DNA of 64,000 nt. Source: Verrucomicrobiaceae bacterium. Lineage in GTDB: Bacteria > Verrucomicrobiota > Verrucomicrobiia > Verrucomicrobiales > Verrucomicrobiaceae. A program made the position numbers and the translations under genes. The stretch is taken from the NCBI GenBank assembly GCA_016795365.1, contig JAEUHN010000036.1:157163-221162 (forward strand), given 5' to 3'. Position 1 is the first letter of the stretch; each line of letters begins with the position of its first letter. Below the pieces are notes generated by a model. That model did not search any database. It worked only from the letters and a program-made list of their open reading frames with translations, and was not told the DNA's origin. This document shows positions 4,164 through 13,369 of this stretch, in pieces.

Positions 4164-4418
4164 ATGAGTGATACCGAACAGACAGCTCTCGTTCCCGAAA
4201 TTCGGGGCATCCTTTCCCAGCACGGACGCATGCCCGTCGAGCAGCTTCAGGAGGGCGATGATCTCTACAACGCCGGCCTCACATCGCTGGCGACTGTTGC
4301 CGTCATGCTGGCGCTGGAGGACAAGTTCAATGTCGAGTTTCCCGACACCATGATTGGGCGTCGCACCTTCAAGAGCATCGAGTCCATCGCAGACGCGATT
4401 CGGCAGCTCGCTGCCTAG
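4164..4418 (+). CDS. Acyl carrier protein-like (aminoacyl carrier protein)
   Basis: An 84-residue carrier protein. It has the four-helix carrier signature with the phosphopantetheine attachment site in NAGLTSLATV, Ser41 being the predicted modified residue (the common DSL motif reads TSL here). The downstream tRNA-synthetase-like ligase suggests it carries an amino acid as a thioester, as shown for Bradyrhizobium aminoacyl carrier proteins. The frame is open 16 codons upstream, but MSDTEQTALVPEIRGIL is the natural start. It is the first gene of the cluster, 65 bases before the acyl-CoA dehydrogenase-like gene. Confidence 0.88.
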   Translation: MSDTEQTALVPEIRGILSQHGRMPVEQLQEGDDLYNAGLTSLATVAVMLALEDKFNVEFPDTMIGRRTFKSIESIADAIRQLAA

Positions 4419-4483
4419 TCCCTCCTCACGGTCGCAGGACCGCGTCCTGGCATTGCCTCAAACCCCTACGCTCAAAACGTCCC

Positions 4484-5665
4484 GTGACCGCCCTACTCAG
4501 CACCGAGATCGACTTCGATCAGCTCCTTCAGAAAGTCCATGCCATTGGCAAATCCGTGTTGCGTGTCCATGCAGCGGATGTTGATGCCAAGGCACGGTTC
4601 CCCGTCGAGTCCATCAATGCTATGCGTGGGCTCCGCTTGCTCAGTGCTTACGTCCCTGAGTCGTATGGCGGCCTGGGACTGTCGGTGACCCAGGTGGCAA
4701 AGGTATGCGAGGCGCTCGGGCAATACTGTGGATCGTCCGCGATGATCTATGCGATGCACATGATCCAGGTGGCTTGCGTGGTGCATCATGCGCAGTCATC
4801 GGACTACTTTCGAGATTACCTCGGCGAGCTGGTCACTGATCAGCGCCTCATGGCGTCTGCTACCACAGAGATCGGCACAGGAGGCGATCTACGATCCAGC
4901 ATCTGCGCCCTCGAGACCACCGGCGACGAATTCATTGTCACCAAGCAGGCGCCCGTCATCTCCTATGGTGAAGACGCGGACGATCTCTTGCTCACATGCC
5001 GACAGTCTGCGGACGCGCCAGCCGACCTCCAGGCTCACGTCATGCTTCGCAAAGGAGAATACACCACGGAGGCGCTCTCGAACTGGGACACGCTCGGCTT
5101 CCGTGGCACATGCAGCTCCGGTTTCACGGTGAAAGCGAGCGGCCATGTGCAGCAGATCCTTCCCGAAACCTTTAGCAAAATCCTCAGCCAGACGATGCAT
5201 CCCTCGGCGCACATCTGGTGGAGCGCCCTCTGGGCAGGCATCGCCACAGATGCGGTCAATCTCGCCCGCGCCTTCGTGCGTGCAGAGGCACGGAAAACAC
5301 CCGGCGAAACACCCATCTCGGCCATTCGCCTTGGAGAGGTCGATCTGATGCTGCAAGAGATGCGTCACAACATGACCGCACACGCCAGGGACTATCAGGA
5401 ACGTCTGAGCAGTGAGAACCCTGATGCGTGCGAGGAATTCGGATTCGCGATTCGCACCAACAACCTCAAGCTCTCATCCTCAGCGAAGCTCGTGGACATC
5501 GTCGGTCGTGCGATGCTGATCTGCGGGATCTCGGGCTATCGCAATGATTCCAAGTTCAGCCTCGCGCGTCATCTCCGCGATGCCTACGGCGCTCAGTTGA
5601 TGGTGAACAACGACCGGATTCTAAAGCTCAACGCCACCATGCTGATGATTCACCGGGAAGCATAG
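4484..5665 (+). CDS. Acyl-CoA dehydrogenase family flavoprotein
   Basis: A 393-residue acyl-CoA dehydrogenase homologue starting at a GTG (4484). The N-terminal helical domain carries YVPESYGGLGLS, the middle beta domain MASATTEIGTGGDL with the FAD-binding region, and the C-terminal helical domain ICGISGYRNDSKFSLARHLRDA. I could not place the usual catalytic Glu with confidence. In this setting the substrate is likely a carrier-bound acyl or aminoacyl group, or the protein has a binding role; both are inferences. It ends four bases before the ligase ATG, so co-translation is likely. Confidence 0.87.
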   Translation: MTALLSTEIDFDQLLQKVHAIGKSVLRVHAADVDAKARFPVESINAMRGLRLLSAYVPESYGGLGLSVTQVAKVCEALGQYCGSSAMIYAMHMIQVACVVHHAQSSDYFRDYLGELVTDQRLMASATTEIGTGGDLRSSICALETTGDEFIVTKQAPVISYGEDADDLLLTCRQSADAPADLQAHVMLRKGEYTTEALSNWDTLGFRGTCSSGFTVKASGHVQQILPETFSKILSQTMHPSAHIWWSALWAGIATDAVNLARAFVRAEARKTPGETPISAIRLGEVDLMLQEMRHNMTAHARDYQERLSSENPDACEEFGFAIRTNNLKLSSSAKLVDIVGRAMLICGISGYRNDSKFSLARHLRDAYGAQLMVNNDRILKLNATMLMIHREA

Positions 5666-5669
5666 AACC

Positions 5670-6605
5670 ATGATCTGCAATTCCACCACCGCTCTGCCCC
5701 TCACGGCCGCCTACCAAGCCTTTCTCGACCAGCTGACAGAGGCCGGGCTCTTCATTCCCCAGGGCGTGCAGGGCGTCTATGGATTCAGTGGTGCCTTCGA
5801 GGATGTGCTCCAGGCCTTTGACCGCTTCACGATGCGACGCTCAGCCCACATCCCATCGGAGCCCATGCATTTTCCCGGCGTGCTCAGTCGTGAGGTGTAT
5901 TTGAAGACTTCACACATCGAAAACTTCCCCGACCTGATGGGCTCTGTCCACAGCTTCGTGGGACGTGAGCGCGAACATGCCGGCATGCTGGCCAAGCGGC
6001 AGCAAGGCGAGGAATGGACCCAGGACCTTTCGCCAAGCCAGTTGATGCTCACTCCGGCCGGATGCTATCAGTTGTATCCGACTGCGACCGGCACACTCAC
6101 CGAACAGGGAAGAACGGTCAAACTTGTGTCGTCGGTGTTCCGACACGAGCCCTCGGTCGATCCCTGCCGCATGCAAGTCTTCCGCATGAGAGAATACGTG
6201 CGCATTGGCACGCCCGACCAAGCTCTCGAGCACCGGCGGCAATGGCTCGCGCTGGGCAAGGACATCCTCACCGAATTAGGTCTCGGCGTCGAAGTCGTTC
6301 TGGCGAATGATCCCTTCTTCGGCCGTGGCGGGCGCGTCATGGCGGCCTCGCAGAAGGAGCAGGACTTGAAGCACGAGTTCACCATCGCGGTGGCAACCTC
6401 TGAGAAACCCACGGCCATTGGATCGACCAACTGCCACATGGACTACTTCGGCAAAACCTTCGACATCAAGACACCCGACGGTGCCACCGCCCACTCGGCG
6501 TGCATCGGGTTCGGCCTTGAGCGCGTGACGCTTGCCCTCTTCAAGCATCACGGGCTGGACCCGGATCACTGGCCGCAGGAGGTGAAGAACGCCCTGGCTC
6601 TATGA
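5670..6605 (+). CDS. Amino acid:[carrier protein] ligase, class II synthetase-like
   Basis: A 311-residue homologue of the catalytic core of atypical (methanogen-type) seryl-tRNA synthetases without a tRNA-binding domain. Characterised homologues in Bradyrhizobium activate small amino acids with ATP and load them on a carrier protein. Class II motif 2 is visible as VFRHEPS...FRMREYVRIG and motif 3 as GFGLERVTLALF. Cys132, Glu175 and Cys255 sit where the atypical SerRS group binds its active-site zinc. Amino-acid specificity (Gly or Ala is usual) cannot be read by eye. The stop overlaps the next ATG (ATGA at 6602). Confidence 0.9.
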   Translation: MICNSTTALPLTAAYQAFLDQLTEAGLFIPQGVQGVYGFSGAFEDVLQAFDRFTMRRSAHIPSEPMHFPGVLSREVYLKTSHIENFPDLMGSVHSFVGREREHAGMLAKRQQGEEWTQDLSPSQLMLTPAGCYQLYPTATGTLTEQGRTVKLVSSVFRHEPSVDPCRMQVFRMREYVRIGTPDQALEHRRQWLALGKDILTELGLGVEVVLANDPFFGRGGRVMAASQKEQDLKHEFTIAVATSEKPTAIGSTNCHMDYFGKTFDIKTPDGATAHSACIGFGLERVTLALFKHHGLDPDHWPQEVKNALAL

Positions 6606-7579
6606 TGCGGCAGCTCATCGCCCTCGACCCGAAGAACTACTCACGGCATCGTCTCCATGAGCAAGAACGCGATTGGGCAGAGACCAACTGCTACGTCGAT
6701 GTGTGGATCGAATTGCTGCACTCCTTGGGCCTCGATCCCATCGCGGCTCTTCCTTTTACGCTTGCCATCGACTTCGAAGGCGATCAGTGGACCTTCTTCA
6801 AGTATCCGCCTGAAGACCTCTTCGATCTCTACTCGCTCGACGTTCTTGAGCTGGCCATCTGGCGTCCGGTGCCTTTGCACATCGAGGAGCAGCTCTCGCT
6901 AGGCCGCCCCGTGCTCGTGGAGCTGGACTCCATGTTTCTGCCGGACACCGCAGGCAGTGCCTATCAACTCGACCATGTCAAAACCACGGTGGGCGTGGTG
7001 GAAATCGACATTGAAAATCAGCGCCTCGGCTACTTCCACGGGCAGGGCTATTACCACCTGCACGGCGATGACTTTGCCAACGTCTTCCACACGCGTGGTG
7101 AACGAAACCCAGCCATTCTCTCGCCTTACTGCGAGATCGTCAAACGCCGTTCCGCTGCGCCCTTGCAGGGTGAGGAACTGCTCCGAGCATCGCTTCGCCT
7201 CCTGACCAAGCACTTGCAGCGGCTGCCGCAGACCAATCCCTTCGAGAAGTTCAAGGCTCGCTTCGAAGCAGATCTCCAGTGGCTGGCGAATGAACCACTG
7301 ACCACCTTCCACCAATACTCGTTCGCCACGCTGCGGCAGTTTGGATCCTGCTACGAAGTGGCTGGAGCTTACCTCGGTTGGTTGCAGGGCCGGGGCATCG
7401 CCGGCCTGGAGCAGCCGATCGCGGCCATGCGCGCGCTTTCAACAAGTGCGAAGACCATGCAATTCCAACTCGCTCGCGCCATGGCGCGAAAGAAGCCCAT
7501 CGACCTCCAGCCCTTCGATCAAATGGCCGAGCACTGGTGCAGCGCCATCCAGCGCCTGAAGGATCAGTTTTCGCCGTGA
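6602..7579 (+). CDS. DUF1839 family protein, possible aminoacyl transferase
   Basis: A 325-residue DUF1839 protein; the family recurs beside amino acid:carrier-protein ligases. The N-terminal region has an invariant-looking Cys30 in ETNCYVDVW. Later comes GRPVLVELDSMFLPD (Asp109), then Asp124-His125 before a beta strand, and GYYHLHGDDF. This order (early Cys, GxPVLVxxD, then His) matches the cysteine-peptidase-like fold of BtrH, which transfers an acyl group from a carrier protein to an aminoglycoside in butirosin synthesis. I infer a transferase acting on the aminoacyl carrier protein; not proven. It overlaps both neighbours by four bases (ATGA, GTGA). Confidence 0.8.
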   Translation: MMRQLIALDPKNYSRHRLHEQERDWAETNCYVDVWIELLHSLGLDPIAALPFTLAIDFEGDQWTFFKYPPEDLFDLYSLDVLELAIWRPVPLHIEEQLSLGRPVLVELDSMFLPDTAGSAYQLDHVKTTVGVVEIDIENQRLGYFHGQGYYHLHGDDFANVFHTRGERNPAILSPYCEIVKRRSAAPLQGEELLRASLRLLTKHLQRLPQTNPFEKFKARFEADLQWLANEPLTTFHQYSFATLRQFGSCYEVAGAYLGWLQGRGIAGLEQPIAAMRALSTSAKTMQFQLARAMARKKPIDLQPFDQMAEHWCSAIQRLKDQFSP

Positions 7580-10095
7580 ACGACTCGGGCACAGCGACCT
7601 CGACGCACTCTCCAGCCCCAACCGTGAGCCTGGAGGATGTCCGGTGGTCGTGTTGTGCACAGCCCGCTGGCAGCATCATCGAGCCAGCTGACCTTGGCAC
7701 CGCTGCCTGCGATTGGATGCCCGCGCATGTGCCTGGCACCGTCGCATCTGCCTTGCATGCGAGCGGGCGATGGAATGATCAACATCCGATCGACCTCGAC
7801 GCTTGCGATTGGTGGTTCCGAGTATCGTTTGAGACGTCAGAATATGAGGCTGGTGTGCTCTGTTTTGATGGACTCGCAGGACTGGCCCAAGTCTGGCTCA
7901 ATGGCGAGTGTGTGCTGCAAGCGGACAACATGTTTCGCAGCTACCGTGTGGACGTCGCTGGACACCTGCTCGCCAGCAATGACCTCGTCATCGTCTTTCG
8001 CTCCCTCGCCTTCGAGCTAAAAAAAAGGCGTCCCCGTCCACGCTGGAAAACCAATCTCGTCACGCACCAGCAACTTCGTTGGATACGCACCAGCTTGTTA
8101 GGCCGCATCCCAGGCTGGACGCCACCCGTGCCAGCCATCGGGCCTTGGCGTGCCATTCGATTGGAGCAGGACAGCGTGTTGCTCAGCGAGATTCAGCATC
8201 GAGCCGCAATCGAAGGCGATGATGGAGTGGTCACTTTCAGTGCTCTTGCAACGGCGTCCGACCCTTTGCTTTCGGCGCGGCTGTGCGTTGGAGACCATGA
8301 AGTCGAACTGCAACTCAACGATCGTCGATTAACCGGCGACCTTCGCATCGCGAACCCGGTGCGGTGGTGGCCGCACACGCATGGTGAACCACACTTGTTT
8401 GAATGTCGTTTGATCGTTCAGACCACGACTGCGCAGAGAACCATCGTGTTGGACCGGATTGGCTTCCGGGCGCTGGAAATTCGCGGCGATCCCGGTTTTG
8501 GTCTGCGGATCAATGGAGAGCCTGTCTATTGTCGCGGTGCGTGCTGGACGACGGCTGACATCTTTACGCACTCGAGCACGACGGAGTCATTGCGGCACGA
8601 CCTTCACCTCGCCCGAGATGCGGGCATGAACATGGTTCGTCTGGGCGGCACCATGCACTACGAGAGCGATTCCTTCTATAGGCTGTGCGATGAACTCGGC
8701 ATCCTCGTGTGGCAGGACTTCATGTTCGCCAACATGGACTACCCCGTGGATGACTTGCTGTTTGCCGAGAACATCTCAATGGAAGCCCGCGAGCTTCTTG
8801 ATCGCCTCGCACCGCATCCTTCGGTGGTGGTGTATTGCGGCAGCAGCGAGATCGAGCAGCAGGCGGCAATGCTCGGCGTGCCGCGTGAGTTGTGGCGAAA
8901 TCGTTGGTTCGGTGAAGACCTGCCGGCGCTCTGCGCGCAATACCATCCCGGCACTGCCTATGTGCCGTCATCGCCCAGCGGTGGCACCTTGCCCTTCCAC
9001 GCGAAGAACGGCATTACTCACTACTATGGCATCGGAGCCTATCGGCGATCCCTGCGCGAACTGCGACAGGCAGATGTGAAGTTCACCACGGAGTGCCTCG
9101 GCTTTGCGAACATCCCTGAGCCTGAAGTGATCGACGAGTGCATGGGCGGACTGCTTCCAGTCACACATCATCCCAGGTGGAAGCAGCGCGTGCCTCGCGA
9201 CACCGGATCGGGCTGGGACTTCGAGGACGTTCGCGATCACTACCTGCGCGAGTGGTTCAACGTTGATCCTACCACTCAACGCAGCTTCGACATGCCGCGT
9301 TACCTGGAACTCAGTCGCGTGGTCTCGGGTGAATTGATGGCCCGCACCTTCGCTGAATGGCGCAGCGCGAGCAGCAACAATGCGGGAGCGCTGGTGTGGT
9401 TCTTCAAGGATCTCTGGGCGGCCTCTGGCTGGGGCATTCTCGATCATCGTGGCCTCCCGAAGGCTGCGTATTATCAACTCAAGCGTGCCTGGCAGACTCG
9501 ACAGCTGTGCCTCACAGACGAAGGCTTGGATGGCTTGCAGCTTCATCTCGTGAACGAAACACGGGAGGCCATTGACGGAGTTGTAGAGGTGCAGTTGCTG
9601 CGTGAGCCTGGCCACGTGTTGGCCAAGCATGAGGTGGAAGTCAGCGTCGCGGGTCGGTCGAAGGCAAGTCTCAGCGTCGATGAAATCGTCGGCGTCTTCA
9701 GAGACATCAACTATGCCTATCGCTTTGGTCCCCTCAGCCACCATGTCGTGGTGGCCACGTGGTTCGATGCCGACCGCCACAACCTCAGCGAAGCGTTTTA
9801 CTTCACGCGCTCACGTGATCCCGAGCCGCACTCCGTCTCCTGGCAGGCGCAAGGTGAACCACTAGGCGACGGTCGTTACCGGGTCGTTCTGCGGAGCGAC
9901 ACCTTTTTGCATCACGTTCGTTGCTCGGCGAAAGGCTTCCTGCCCGACGACAACTACTTCCACCTTGTCCCCGCACGGTCCAAGACCCTCACCTTCGCGC
10001 CTATCAAAGATCATGCTGGACCCTTGCGGGCCACGATCGAGGCTTTGAATGCCCTGGGAGAACTCACGGTGGACATCAAAGCCGCGCCTCACTGA
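7576..10095 (+). CDS. Glycoside hydrolase family 2, beta-mannosidase-like
   Basis: An 839-residue GH2 protein starting at a GTG (7576) that overlaps the DUF1839 stop. It has the sugar-binding domain (CDWWFRVSFE, WLNGE), an immunoglobulin-like domain, and a TIM barrel with GACWTTADIF and NMVRLGG. The acid/base region reads YCGSSEIEQQ, so Glu425 is kept but the preceding Asn usual in GH2 is Ser. The nucleophile region reads FTTECLGFANIP (Glu506). No signal peptide was seen, so it is probably cytoplasmic. In this cluster it may act on a glycoside intermediate or bind one without hydrolysis. Confidence 0.85.
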   Translation: MNDSGTATSTHSPAPTVSLEDVRWSCCAQPAGSIIEPADLGTAACDWMPAHVPGTVASALHASGRWNDQHPIDLDACDWWFRVSFETSEYEAGVLCFDGLAGLAQVWLNGECVLQADNMFRSYRVDVAGHLLASNDLVIVFRSLAFELKKRRPRPRWKTNLVTHQQLRWIRTSLLGRIPGWTPPVPAIGPWRAIRLEQDSVLLSEIQHRAAIEGDDGVVTFSALATASDPLLSARLCVGDHEVELQLNDRRLTGDLRIANPVRWWPHTHGEPHLFECRLIVQTTTAQRTIVLDRIGFRALEIRGDPGFGLRINGEPVYCRGACWTTADIFTHSSTTESLRHDLHLARDAGMNMVRLGGTMHYESDSFYRLCDELGILVWQDFMFANMDYPVDDLLFAENISMEARELLDRLAPHPSVVVYCGSSEIEQQAAMLGVPRELWRNRWFGEDLPALCAQYHPGTAYVPSSPSGGTLPFHAKNGITHYYGIGAYRRSLRELRQADVKFTTECLGFANIPEPEVIDECMGGLLPVTHHPRWKQRVPRDTGSGWDFEDVRDHYLREWFNVDPTTQRSFDMPRYLELSRVVSGELMARTFAEWRSASSNNAGALVWFFKDLWAASGWGILDHRGLPKAAYYQLKRAWQTRQLCLTDEGLDGLQLHLVNETREAIDGVVEVQLLREPGHVLAKHEVEVSVAGRSKASLSVDEIVGVFRDINYAYRFGPLSHHVVVATWFDADRHNLSEAFYFTRSRDPEPHSVSWQAQGEPLGDGRYRVVLRSDTFLHHVRCSAKGFLPDDNYFHLVPARSKTLTFAPIKDHAGPLRATIEALNALGELTVDIKAAPH

Positions 10096-10100
10096 ACGCC

Positions 10101-11939
10101 ATGTCTGTCGCCCTCCTGGAACCCGAGCTTCTCCACACGCACGATGCCGTGTTGGATGTTCGCGACCATGAAGTGGCGCGCACGGCCTGTTACTTCGAGA
10201 GCCAGCGGCGCTCTCTGTTTGCGTGGCTGCATCGACCTGCGGGCGTGGTTGCCCACCATGGTGTGCTGATCTGTCCGCCCCTTGGCCATGAGCTGGTTCA
10301 CGCGCATCGCTCGTTGCGGCACTTGGCTGATCGTCTGGCAGCTTCGGGCTTTGCAGCGATGAGGTTTGACTACGATGGGACGGGCGACTCTGAAGGCATG
10401 GATCATGATGCCCAGCGCATGCCGACGTGGGTGGCCAATGTGAACGACGCGGTCCAATGGCTGAAGCAGGAGGCTGGTTGTGACGTGGTGAGCCTGATCG
10501 GATTGCGCATGGGAGCAACGCTCGCCGCCTTGCATGCCGCAGAGCATCGCGTTGAGAATCTCGTGCTCTGGGAGCCGGTGGTGAAAGGCCGGCGCTACGT
10601 GCGTGAACTCACTGCTCTGAATCTGGCCGCCAGCCAGACGACCAACCCCTCATCCATGATCGAAGCGGTGGGTTTTGTTTTCACCAACGAGACGGCCCAA
10701 GCGCTGGCGAAGGTGGATCTGCTCACCGTGTCGCCGCAGTTCAGCAGCGGGCTCATGGTCCGCAGTGACAAAGGATCGAAGGACACCGCGCTCAAGGACC
10801 ATCTCGACACCCTCAGCAGCGACGTTCAGCAGGTGTGCTATCCGGGATTTGAAGAGATGATGGCCGAGCCCCAACACGCCGAGGTGCCCAGCGCGGCGCT
10901 CGAAGGCATCGTTGACTGGCTGGCTTCTCGTGAACTTCAGCTGCCCGAGCCAGGCCCGGCACGTCGCTTGGATGCTCCAGCCATGATGACAATGCACGGT
11001 TCACCACCAGTGCGTGAGAGCCTGCATCAGATCGCCGCAGAATCAGAATTGTTCGGCATTCTGACCGAGCCAGTCGATGGTGGCACAGCACGCCCATGGA
11101 TCATCATGCTCAATGGTGGAGCTGCCTATCACATCGGTCCGGGGCGACTGCATGTGCAGCTTGCACGTCATCTGGCGACGCTGGGTTACCCATGCCTGCG
11201 AATGGACATCAGTGGTCTGGGAGACAGTCCGGCGGACGATCCGAGGCACGAAAATGACGCTTATGCGGCCACCGCATTTCGCGACGTGGCACTGACCTGC
11301 GACTACTTGAATCGTTTGCAGCCCGATCGTCCGATCGTCCTCATGGGATTGTGTTCGGGTGCGTATGCGGCGTTTCAGTCGGTGGTGCAGTTGCCGCATC
11401 CAGCCTTGATCGAAGGCATCTTGCTTAACCCGCTCACTTTCTTTTGGCGCGAAGGCATGTCGCTCACGGCCTCTCCCACCCAGCGATTGCAGACGTGGCA
11501 TTACTATCGCAGCATCGTCTTTGATTCGAACAACTGGCGGCAACTTTTCTCTGGCAAGCCTGGGATGGGGATTGCAGGGGCGGTCCGGCGATTCGTCCAG
11601 CGCATGTTTCCTCGGGCAACGCATACCTTTTTGCCTCAGATCGCTCGAGATACTCGCAGCGACTATGGGCATCCTGCGAAGGAAGATCTCAGTGCGGACT
11701 TGAGTCGTGTGGCAACGACCTCGCGGAAACTCGCGATGTTTGTCTCCGAAGGCGATCCCGGGCACTTCCTGCTGATGCATCAAGCCCGACGCAAGGCCTT
11801 GAAGATGATTCGCAAAGGCCAGCTAAAGTGCTTCTTCGTGAAGGATGCGGACCACACGTTCTCCACGGAAGCGGCGCGCCGATCCTTGACCCAGAGCCTC
11901 ACGGATTACCTCGAGAGCCGGTTCTCGTCCGAGGCTTGA
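10101..11939 (+). CDS. Tandem alpha/beta-hydrolase protein with non-Ser nucleophile elbows
   Basis: A 612-residue protein with two alpha/beta-hydrolase domains (about residues 20-290 and 310-610). The first resembles exosortase-associated hydrolases and has RFDYDGTGDSEG and a nucleophile elbow GLRMG, with Arg136 where Ser is expected. The second has RMDISGLGDSPADD and an elbow GLCSG with Cys418, plus a candidate catalytic His585 in DADHTFS. The first domain may be inactive, and the second could be a Cys-dependent thioesterase, acyltransferase or hydrolase. It starts five bases after the GH2 gene and is probably the last gene of the cluster. Confidence 0.8.
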   Translation: MSVALLEPELLHTHDAVLDVRDHEVARTACYFESQRRSLFAWLHRPAGVVAHHGVLICPPLGHELVHAHRSLRHLADRLAASGFAAMRFDYDGTGDSEGMDHDAQRMPTWVANVNDAVQWLKQEAGCDVVSLIGLRMGATLAALHAAEHRVENLVLWEPVVKGRRYVRELTALNLAASQTTNPSSMIEAVGFVFTNETAQALAKVDLLTVSPQFSSGLMVRSDKGSKDTALKDHLDTLSSDVQQVCYPGFEEMMAEPQHAEVPSAALEGIVDWLASRELQLPEPGPARRLDAPAMMTMHGSPPVRESLHQIAAESELFGILTEPVDGGTARPWIIMLNGGAAYHIGPGRLHVQLARHLATLGYPCLRMDISGLGDSPADDPRHENDAYAATAFRDVALTCDYLNRLQPDRPIVLMGLCSGAYAAFQSVVQLPHPALIEGILLNPLTFFWREGMSLTASPTQRLQTWHYYRSIVFDSNNWRQLFSGKPGMGIAGAVRRFVQRMFPRATHTFLPQIARDTRSDYGHPAKEDLSADLSRVATTSRKLAMFVSEGDPGHFLLMHQARRKALKMIRKGQLKCFFVKDADHTFSTEAARRSLTQSLTDYLESRFSSEA

Positions 11940-12064: not shown

Positions 12065-13369
12065 ATGACTCCGGCCAAGCTTCTCTCACCCTTCGCCGCC
12101 ACTTGCATGGTGGTGGCGAATATGATCGGCGTGGGCGTGTTCACCAGTGTCGGCTTCCAGCTCCCAGGGTTGCCATCGGCCGGGCCGATCCTCGCCTTGT
12201 GGGCACTGGGCGGATTGCTGTCGTTGTGTGGAGCGCTTTGTTATGCAGAGTTGGTGGCGATGATGCCGCGCAGCGGGGGCGAGTATCATCTGCTGCGCGA
12301 GGCGTATCATCCCATGGTCGGCTTCATGGCCGGGTGGATCTCGCTCGTGGCGGGCTTTGCTGCACCGATCGCGCTCGCGGCCTCCGCGTTTGCCAGGTAT
12401 GCCCAGGCCTTCGGCGTCAACGCGGAGGCGCATCTGCTTGCGGCAGCACTGGTCATCGCGGTGGCGGCCGTCAACCTGACCGACGACCGCATCCTCGGGA
12501 AGTTCCTCAGCGGGTTCACAGTGATGAAGGTGCTGCTGATCCTCGCCTTCATCGCTGGCGCGGTGTTTTTGCCTGGAGGCGTTCACAATTCGATCGCGCC
12601 CAAGGCTGGCGATGGAGCGATGTTCATTTCGCCCGCCTTCGCGATCTCGCTCGTCTATGTGATGTATGCCTATGAAGGCTGGAATGGCGCGGCTTACGTG
12701 GCTGGCGAGGTGGACGATCCGCGCAAGAACATGCCGCGTGCACTGGTGATCGGCACCGTGATCGTCACGCTGCTCTACGTCGCGGTTCATGCCGTGTTCC
12801 TCTGGCGTGCGCCGTGGGCTGCGATGGAGGGCAAACCGGAAGCCGCACTGATCGCGGCGCAGTCGATCTTCGGCGAGACCGGCGGGAAGTTCATGGGCTT
12901 CCTCATTGCCTTCGGCCTCATCTCCACCGTCGCGAGCATGATCTGCGCGGGCTCCCGCGTGAACGAGCGCATGGGCGAGGACGTGCCATTCCTGAAGCTG
13001 CTGGCCTATCAAAACAAGGCCGGGACGCCCGTCGTGGCCGTGCTGCTCGTCACGGCGATGTCGCTCGCGATGCTCTTCACCAAGACCTTCGAGGAAGTGC
13101 TGCGCTACGTGGAGTGCCTGCTGCTGCTGTCCTCATGCCTGGCCGTGCTGGGCGTCATCGGACTGCGCATCCGTCGCCCCGAGGCACCGCGTCCGTTCCG
13201 CGTGCCGCTCTACCCGATCACGCCGCTGCTGTTCGCGGCGATGACGATTTACATGATCACCTTCATGGCACGGCAGCACCTGGATGAACTGAAGTGGGGC
13301 CTCGTCACACTCGGCGCAGGTTTGGTCGTTTATGTCGCAGGAACGCTGTGGCAAAAGGCGCGGTCCTGA
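12065..13369 (+). CDS. APC superfamily amino-acid permease
   Basis: A 434-residue membrane transporter of the APC (amino acid-polyamine-organocation) superfamily with about 12 predicted helices. Helix 1 has the unwound glycine motif MIGVGVFTS, and residues 80-85 have MPRSGGEYHLL, both characteristic of APC/LAT members. Substrate cannot be named. It follows the carrier-protein cluster after 125 bases on the same strand, so it could supply amino acid to the ligase, but the spacing does not require co-transcription. The next gene follows after 16 bases. Confidence 0.87.
   Translation: MTPAKLLSPFAATCMVVANMIGVGVFTSVGFQLPGLPSAGPILALWALGGLLSLCGALCYAELVAMMPRSGGEYHLLREAYHPMVGFMAGWISLVAGFAAPIALAASAFARYAQAFGVNAEAHLLAAALVIAVAAVNLTDDRILGKFLSGFTVMKVLLILAFIAGAVFLPGGVHNSIAPKAGDGAMFISPAFAISLVYVMYAYEGWNGAAYVAGEVDDPRKNMPRALVIGTVIVTLLYVAVHAVFLWRAPWAAMEGKPEAALIAAQSIFGETGGKFMGFLIAFGLISTVASMICAGSRVNERMGEDVPFLKLLAYQNKAGTPVVAVLLVTAMSLAMLFTKTFEEVLRYVECLLLLSSCLAVLGVIGLRIRRPEAPRPFRVPLYPITPLLFAAMTIYMITFMARQHLDELKWGLVTLGAGLVVYVAGTLWQKARS

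Follow-up and report, generated by a model that had tools for sequence, protein, structure and literature searches.

Amino acid:[carrier protein] (aa:CP) ligases, which derive from tRNA synthetases, were reportedly described in 2010 with no end use assigned to them, and the studies of Mocibob et al. (2010, 2013) are said to have left their acceptor open. We analyzed an operon containing such a ligase in a stretch of 64,000 nt from a Verrucomicrobiaceae bacterium (GCA_016795365.1, contig JAEUHN010000036.1, 157,163-221,162, forward strand). This whole stretch is referred to as the window, and features of its operon are given in window coordinates. The operon encodes an acyl/aminoacyl carrier protein (ACP), a flavoprotein of the acyl-CoA dehydrogenase (ACAD) fold, an aa:CP ligase (AACL), a DUF1839 protein, a family 2 glycosidase (GH2) and a double alpha/beta-hydrolase. 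The aa:CP ligase pathway has lacked an aminoacyl transferase, and DUF1839 is probably this enzyme, because its predicted model matches carrier-dependent enzymes of the CcbD type over the whole length.

The closest described systems share some of these parts. In the lincosamide synthetase, an adenylation enzyme (LmbC/CcbC), a carrier (LmbN/CcbZ) and a condensing enzyme (LmbD/CcbD) likewise carry out activation, carrier loading and papain-like transfer, and CcbD/LmbD accept a carrier-bound amino acid on the catalytic cysteine and then transfer it to a thiooctose sugar at its amino group (PMC12945683). The module studied here differs in that its ligase is usually of the class II aminoacyl-tRNA synthetase type, in that nothing there corresponds to its ACAD-fold flavoprotein, GH2 and double hydrolase, and in its spread over many phyla. 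There are described aa:CP ligases that load Gly, Ala or Ser onto carrier proteins (PMC9437257), and those of Bradyrhizobium and Agrobacterium pair ligase family PRK07080 with a PRK07081 carrier, as was seen here; in contrast to those studies, the ligase is now tied to a candidate transferase, DUF1839, and to a GH2. Butirosin BtrH is an ACP:aminoglycoside acyltransferase of the papain-like superfamily with a carrier-bound aminoacyl donor (PMC10318531), and DUF1839 belongs to the same superfamily but lacks a significant sequence match to it. Exosortase A (XrtA)/PEP-CTERM exopolysaccharide loci are a further point of comparison, since the halves of the double hydrolase resemble TIGR03100 and TIGR03101 and some relatives of the cluster adjoin exosortase A and its FemAB. 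In contrast to those loci, the hydrolases here score below the cut-offs and are fused in one chain, and no exosortase lies near the window cluster. A synthetase-derived ligase joined with a transferase like CcbD, a flavoprotein of the ACAD fold and a GH2 is a new arrangement within an otherwise familiar type of carrier-protein chemistry.

Fold and candidate active site of DUF1839

The DUF1839 gene (6602-7579, plus strand; PF08893, 401 bits) encodes a papain-like protein that is a probable aminoacyl transferase or amide synthase dependent on a carrier protein. An AlphaFold2 (AF2) model built from 48 sequences reached a mean pLDDT of 92.6, and a Foldseek search with this model returned 14 matches at E < 0.001, every one of them AziU2-U3, CtaG or CcbD. 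With VIA-align, the model aligned to CcbD at Z 19.1 (285 residues, rmsd 3.5), to CtaG at Z 18.0 and to AziU2-U3 at Z 17.9, these three alignments spanning 275-287 residues; overall, this group gave Z 16-19 with 272-288 residues aligned, corresponding to the full length. The best chain outside the group reached Z 7.8, and peptidases did not exceed Z 7.7. The two-part fold of the CcbD/CtaG-type amide synthases, with a papain-like N part and a helical C part, was present throughout the model. A PDB sequence search with DUF1839 gave no relative at E up to 1, so the link to CcbD rests on fold. By this predicted fold, DUF1839 is probably a distant CcbD relative that works like CcbD.

We then considered the conserved residues. 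Cys30 and His146 were found in 48/48 sequences, Lys127 and His237 were invariant, and residue 129 was either Thr or Ser. A Cys-(Thr/Ser)-His triad with His and Thr/Ser in exchanged places has been proposed for DUF1839, and its role was guessed from context as glycan processing at the cell wall (PMC10318531). In the window protein, the proposed triad would comprise Cys30, His146 and Thr129 in swapped order. Our literature search returned no paper giving DUF1839 a role in aminoacyl transfer and none on its biochemistry. Assignment to BtrH_N (PF14399; cut-off 29.7 bits) by sequence was rejected, as the window protein gave no match; one Azospirillum homologue reached E 0.086 (13.5 bits).

Gene order across genomes and exchange of the ligase

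The sequence-only reading had described six tightly packed plus-strand genes with overlaps (ATGA at 6602, GTGA at 7576) and gaps of 4-65 bases. This layout held at 4164-11939, with both overlaps present and gaps of 65, 4 and 5 bases, and the families it had named (ACP, ACAD-like, ligase, DUF1839, GH2 and double hydrolase) were confirmed with Pfam and NCBIfam. Promoter and terminator scans returned signals at chance level only, and no sharp island was seen in the GC profile.

To characterize the wider distribution, we examined 64 DUF1839 loci from a scan of genome contigs. These loci came from Verrucomicrobiota, Planctomycetota, Pseudomonadota, Actinomycetota, Acidobacteriota, Gemmatimonadota and Myxococcota (the last titled Deltaproteobacteria). 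The recurring order was ACP, ACAD, AACL, DUF1839 and GH2, usually followed by the fused double alpha/beta-hydrolase. The flavoprotein was found in 60/60 loci whose contig was long enough to reach it, GH2 in 60/62 loci extending past DUF1839, and the ligase in 49/63, and ACP-ACAD-DUF1839-GH2 forms the unchanging core. DUF1839 was also encountered on 59 plasmid records. Among annotated plasmids, the order ACP-ACAD-ligase-DUF1839-GH2 was noted in Azospirillum, Rhizobium, Phyllobacterium, Shinella, Caballeronia and Mycetohabitans, with the plasmid hosts including Burkholderiaceae. The smallest operons (Caballeronia and one Shinella) carried no hydrolase gene and had no consistent glycan neighbour; because they lack the hydrolase, we regard it as accessory and GH2 as core. 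Far from being peculiar to one genome, the order is common to seven phyla and plasmids, and its conservation is far beyond chance; an order confined to this genome, which would have refuted the sequence-only reading, is not what was observed. In Verrucomicrobiota the cluster was rare (1/193 genomes phylum-wide; 10/96 relatives), and in a DUF1839 tree the window sequence fell among other Verrucomicrobiota, with Planctomycetota adjacent. On the Rhizobium gallicum symbiosis plasmid pRGM101a (L092), the cluster was immediately preceded by nifHDK-N-X-fdxB and a repressor of exopolysaccharide production.

The carrier protein (84 aa; 4164-4418, plus strand) scored 98.6 bits against a PRK07081 cut-off of 72. 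Its Ser41, already named as a site on the carrier in the sequence-only reading, lies in a GLTSL context, was at least 95% conserved among 57 sequences, and is the predicted phosphopantetheine site. A 4'-phosphopantetheinyl transferase gene (PF01648) was located directly upstream of ACP in ten loci (L043-L052), which we count in favor of carrier-based chemistry. The ligase (5670-6605, plus strand) is a class II synthetase-like catalytic core of 311 aa without a tRNA-binding domain. It belongs by sequence to the aa:CP ligase family PRK07080 (whole-protein score 400.9 bits; cut-off 357), with loading activity predicted, and it matches Bradyrhizobium Bll0957 (PDB 3mey/4h2s; E 1.7e-65). Alignment to Bll0957 supported the earlier placement of Cys132 and Glu175 at zinc-ligand positions but not that of Cys255, which aligns with a tyrosine. 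Instead, Cys278 (AHSACIGFG) pairs in the alignment with the cysteine of the Bll0957 motif AHTGCVAFG, a residue that we take to bind zinc. The putative zinc ligands are Cys132, Glu175 and Cys278, each at least 95% conserved.

In 14 loci, DUF1839 directly followed ACAD, and the genomes concerned lacked AACL except for one distant homologue. In two of the loci (L026 and L058), the gene immediately before ACP encodes an amino-acid adenylation enzyme, that of L026 scoring 361 bits against a TIGR01733 cut-off of 317. A search of 30 genomes (14 ligase-less, 16 ligase-bearing) at a threshold of at least 51% identity recovered this enzyme, of the nonribosomal peptide synthetase (NRPS) type, in 12/14 ligase-less and 0/16 ligase-bearing genomes (Fisher exact test; p 1e-6). 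At least seven changes were needed on the tree to account for gain and loss of AACL, and the carrier of the ligase-less locus L042 was still of the same family. This exchange of ligase for adenylation enzyme is a natural experiment favoring amino acid loading. That the swap took place in one set of Gammaproteobacteria with the rest of the machine kept, and that the pathway ends on an amino sugar, is a joint proposal we make tentatively. The residue code of the adenylation enzyme, read by eye, pointed to no confident amino acid.

Other candidates for the loading step were rejected. Two flank open reading frames (ORFs) that clustered with AACL in L026 and L058 looked like wrong-frame ORFs. FkbH (glyceryl-ACP), considered as a general ligase substitute, was over its cut-off in 7/14 ligase-less and 2/12 ligase-bearing genomes, a weaker contrast than that of the adenylation enzyme. 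FkbH-domain proteins with an extra N-terminal region were encountered downstream of the cluster (L042:17694-19337, L032:16835-18493, L018:9984-11711), and in L042 the gene lies inside the cluster's gene run and is followed by a second fused hydrolase. A divergent ligase homologue (L076, in the genome of L034) was present as a 546 aa open frame scoring 159.6 bits, below the cut-off.

Flavoprotein, glycosidase, hydrolase and genomic surroundings

The flavoprotein (393 aa; 4484-5665, plus strand; Pfam Acyl-CoA_dh_N/1) gave an AF2 model with a pLDDT of 91, and its ACAD fold was confirmed by a match to SCAD at Z 41.1 over 370 residues. The position of MCAD Glu376 is occupied by Val in 51 and Ile in 8 of 59 sequences, and the catalytic glutamate of acyl-CoA dehydrogenases is thus missing. 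N376 and H243 were invariant, D377 was found in 58/59 sequences, and an N-D-R motif was conserved. Relatives of the fold include dehydrogenases of carrier-bound Pro (4irn) and Cys (ColB1, 7xp7) as well as nitrososynthases and monooxygenases. The model matched many ACAD-fold enzymes at Z 38-41, all tied, and this fold search did not separate dehydrogenases from monooxygenases. The protein is a probable oxidase/dehydrogenase or monooxygenase of a carrier-bound aminoacyl group.

The GH2 (7576-10095, plus strand; Pfam Glyco_hydro_2_N2) is of the beta-mannosidase type and matches the beta-mannosidase PDB 5n6u at E 1.7e-60. Its nucleophile Glu506 was present in 55/55 sequences, its acid/base position 425 was Glu in 49/55 (Asp in 5, Gln in 1), and no obvious signal peptide was seen by eye. 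The double hydrolase (10101-11939, plus strand; residues numbered from 10098) joins, judging by similarity, relatives of two "exosortase A system-associated" hydrolases. Its N half (hydr2_PEP-like) reached 124.5 bits against the TIGR03101 cut-off of 202.75, and its C half (hydr1_PEP-like) 138 bits against the TIGR03100 cut-off of 168.45, both falling short. In the N half, GLRxG replaces GxSxG, with Arg in 45/47 sequences and no Ser/Cys nucleophile; the C half has GLCSG with Cys419 (46/47), Asp553 (46/47) and His586 (47/47). The plain hydrolytic role suggested earlier was not supported. Because the N half lacks a nucleophile and the C half carries a cysteine, the protein may be an acyl-transfer enzyme.

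Glycan-type domains were encountered among 115 flank proteins, counted without a matched control (10 GT2, 5 GT1/4, 6 acyltransferase-3, 4 sulfotransferase and 3 formyltransferase domains). In close relatives, the cluster is followed by genes for a polysaccharide deacetylase and a GT4, and in Saccharospirillum and Exilibacterium exosortase-type proteins, FemAB and deacetylases lie upstream, with exosortase A itself in Saccharospirillum. Because the flanks often, though not always, hold glycan genes, an amino-sugar acceptor is likely; a deacetylase would expose free amines on a glycan and therefore fits such an acceptor. Formyltransferases related to methionyl-tRNA/amino-sugar formyltransferases were noted directly or about 1 kb downstream in two loci (L060:15280-16251, L040:6309-7295). 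Membership of the window cluster in an XrtA locus was not supported, since the exosortases of this genome are on other contigs. Next after the window operon, in the same orientation, comes an amino acid permease gene (12065-13369); in relatives none was seen beside the cluster, and for this reason the gene is probably outside the operon.

Proposed pathway and competing explanations

The reading that we favor, with a fair degree of confidence, is that the six genes form an aminoacyl-transfer module built around a carrier protein, in which DUF1839 passes the group to an amine, likely on an amino sugar. The analysis shows the gene families, their conserved order, the fold match and the replacement of the ligase by an adenylation enzyme; we infer the substrate, acceptor, step order, flavoprotein reaction and product as follows. 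Using ATP, the ligase would activate a small amino acid, which it would then load onto the phosphopantetheine arm of ACP, where the ACAD-fold flavoprotein would probably oxidize the tethered aminoacyl group. DUF1839 would take the group onto Cys30 and deliver it to an amine in a ping-pong manner, as for CcbD/LmbD. The acceptor would most likely be an amino sugar belonging to a precursor of a glycan or to a small glycoside, and inside the cell GH2 and the double hydrolase may act on this glycoside, either as acceptor or as product. The sequence-only reading had held that the cluster produces an aminoacyl group or attaches one, with a sugar-containing molecule as a possible acceptor, and this is supported by the DUF1839 fold and by the glycan flanks of many loci.

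Several observations weigh against the transfer module as proposed. Its reactions are predicted from genes and models. DUF1839 shares only 10-13% sequence identity with CcbD/CtaG and about 11% with CcbD, fold likeness alone is no proof of a common reaction, and the CcbD triad has the order Cys-His-Glu, which differs from that proposed for DUF1839. In the window genome, the cluster has no glycan gene next to it, and several plasmid clusters also have no glycan neighbours. When corrected for kinship, the adenylation-enzyme contrast reduces to four independent pairs on supported branches (p 0.125), nearly all in the expected direction; 2/14 ligase-less genomes have no adenylation enzyme, one of them carrying a distant ligase homologue. 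Some ligase-less loci have FkbH (glyceryl-carrier) proteins nearby, and the carried acyl group may therefore not always be an amino acid.

Some of the same evidence could be read as carrier-tethered tailoring, in which a small oxidized amino-acid block, of the kind produced by prolyl- or cysteinyl-carrier dehydrogenases, is joined by DUF1839 to another small, non-sugar amine and a glycosyl group on the finished metabolite is activated or removed by GH2. The presence of ACAD in all 60 loci that reach it, the action of its fold relatives on carrier-bound Pro and Cys, and the minimal operons without glycan neighbours fit this explanation. So do the fold relatives CtaG and AziU2-U3, which belong to pathways that we take to be non-sugar. 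The near-constant GH2 and the glycan-rich flanks nevertheless suggest a sugar in most lineages, and we consider this alternative unlikely. It is far less probable that DUF1839 is a papain-like cell-wall-processing hydrolase and that the operon, with GH2, degrades or remodels an aminoacylated glycan. Its superfamily and the glycan-processing role guessed from context (PMC10318531) would suit such a hydrolase, but the ATP-using ligase and ACP speak for synthesis, GH2 has no obvious export signal by eye, and the fold relatives are carrier-dependent transferases, with peptidases far down the list (Z at most 7.7). A chance grouping of unrelated genes, some serving carrier loading, others beta-oxidation or the breakdown of sugars, draws on the patchy occurrence in Verrucomicrobiota, and is excluded, to the point of being scarcely credible, by an order that is identical across seven phyla and in plasmid-borne clusters.

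With the aminoacyl-transfer module as the preferred reading, the aa:CP ligases now have, across seven phyla and symbiosis plasmids, a candidate transferase for which a structural precedent exists, along with a GH2 that belongs to the core. It is conceivable, at somewhat less than even chance, that DUF1839 is the acceptor enzyme of these tRNA-synthetase-derived ligases within a widespread pathway that places (possibly oxidized) aminoacyl groups on an amino sugar, an undescribed modification. The question of their end use is thereby reduced to a two-step in vitro test and, if the proposal is true, this operon could explain the purpose of these puzzling tRNA-synthetase look-alikes.

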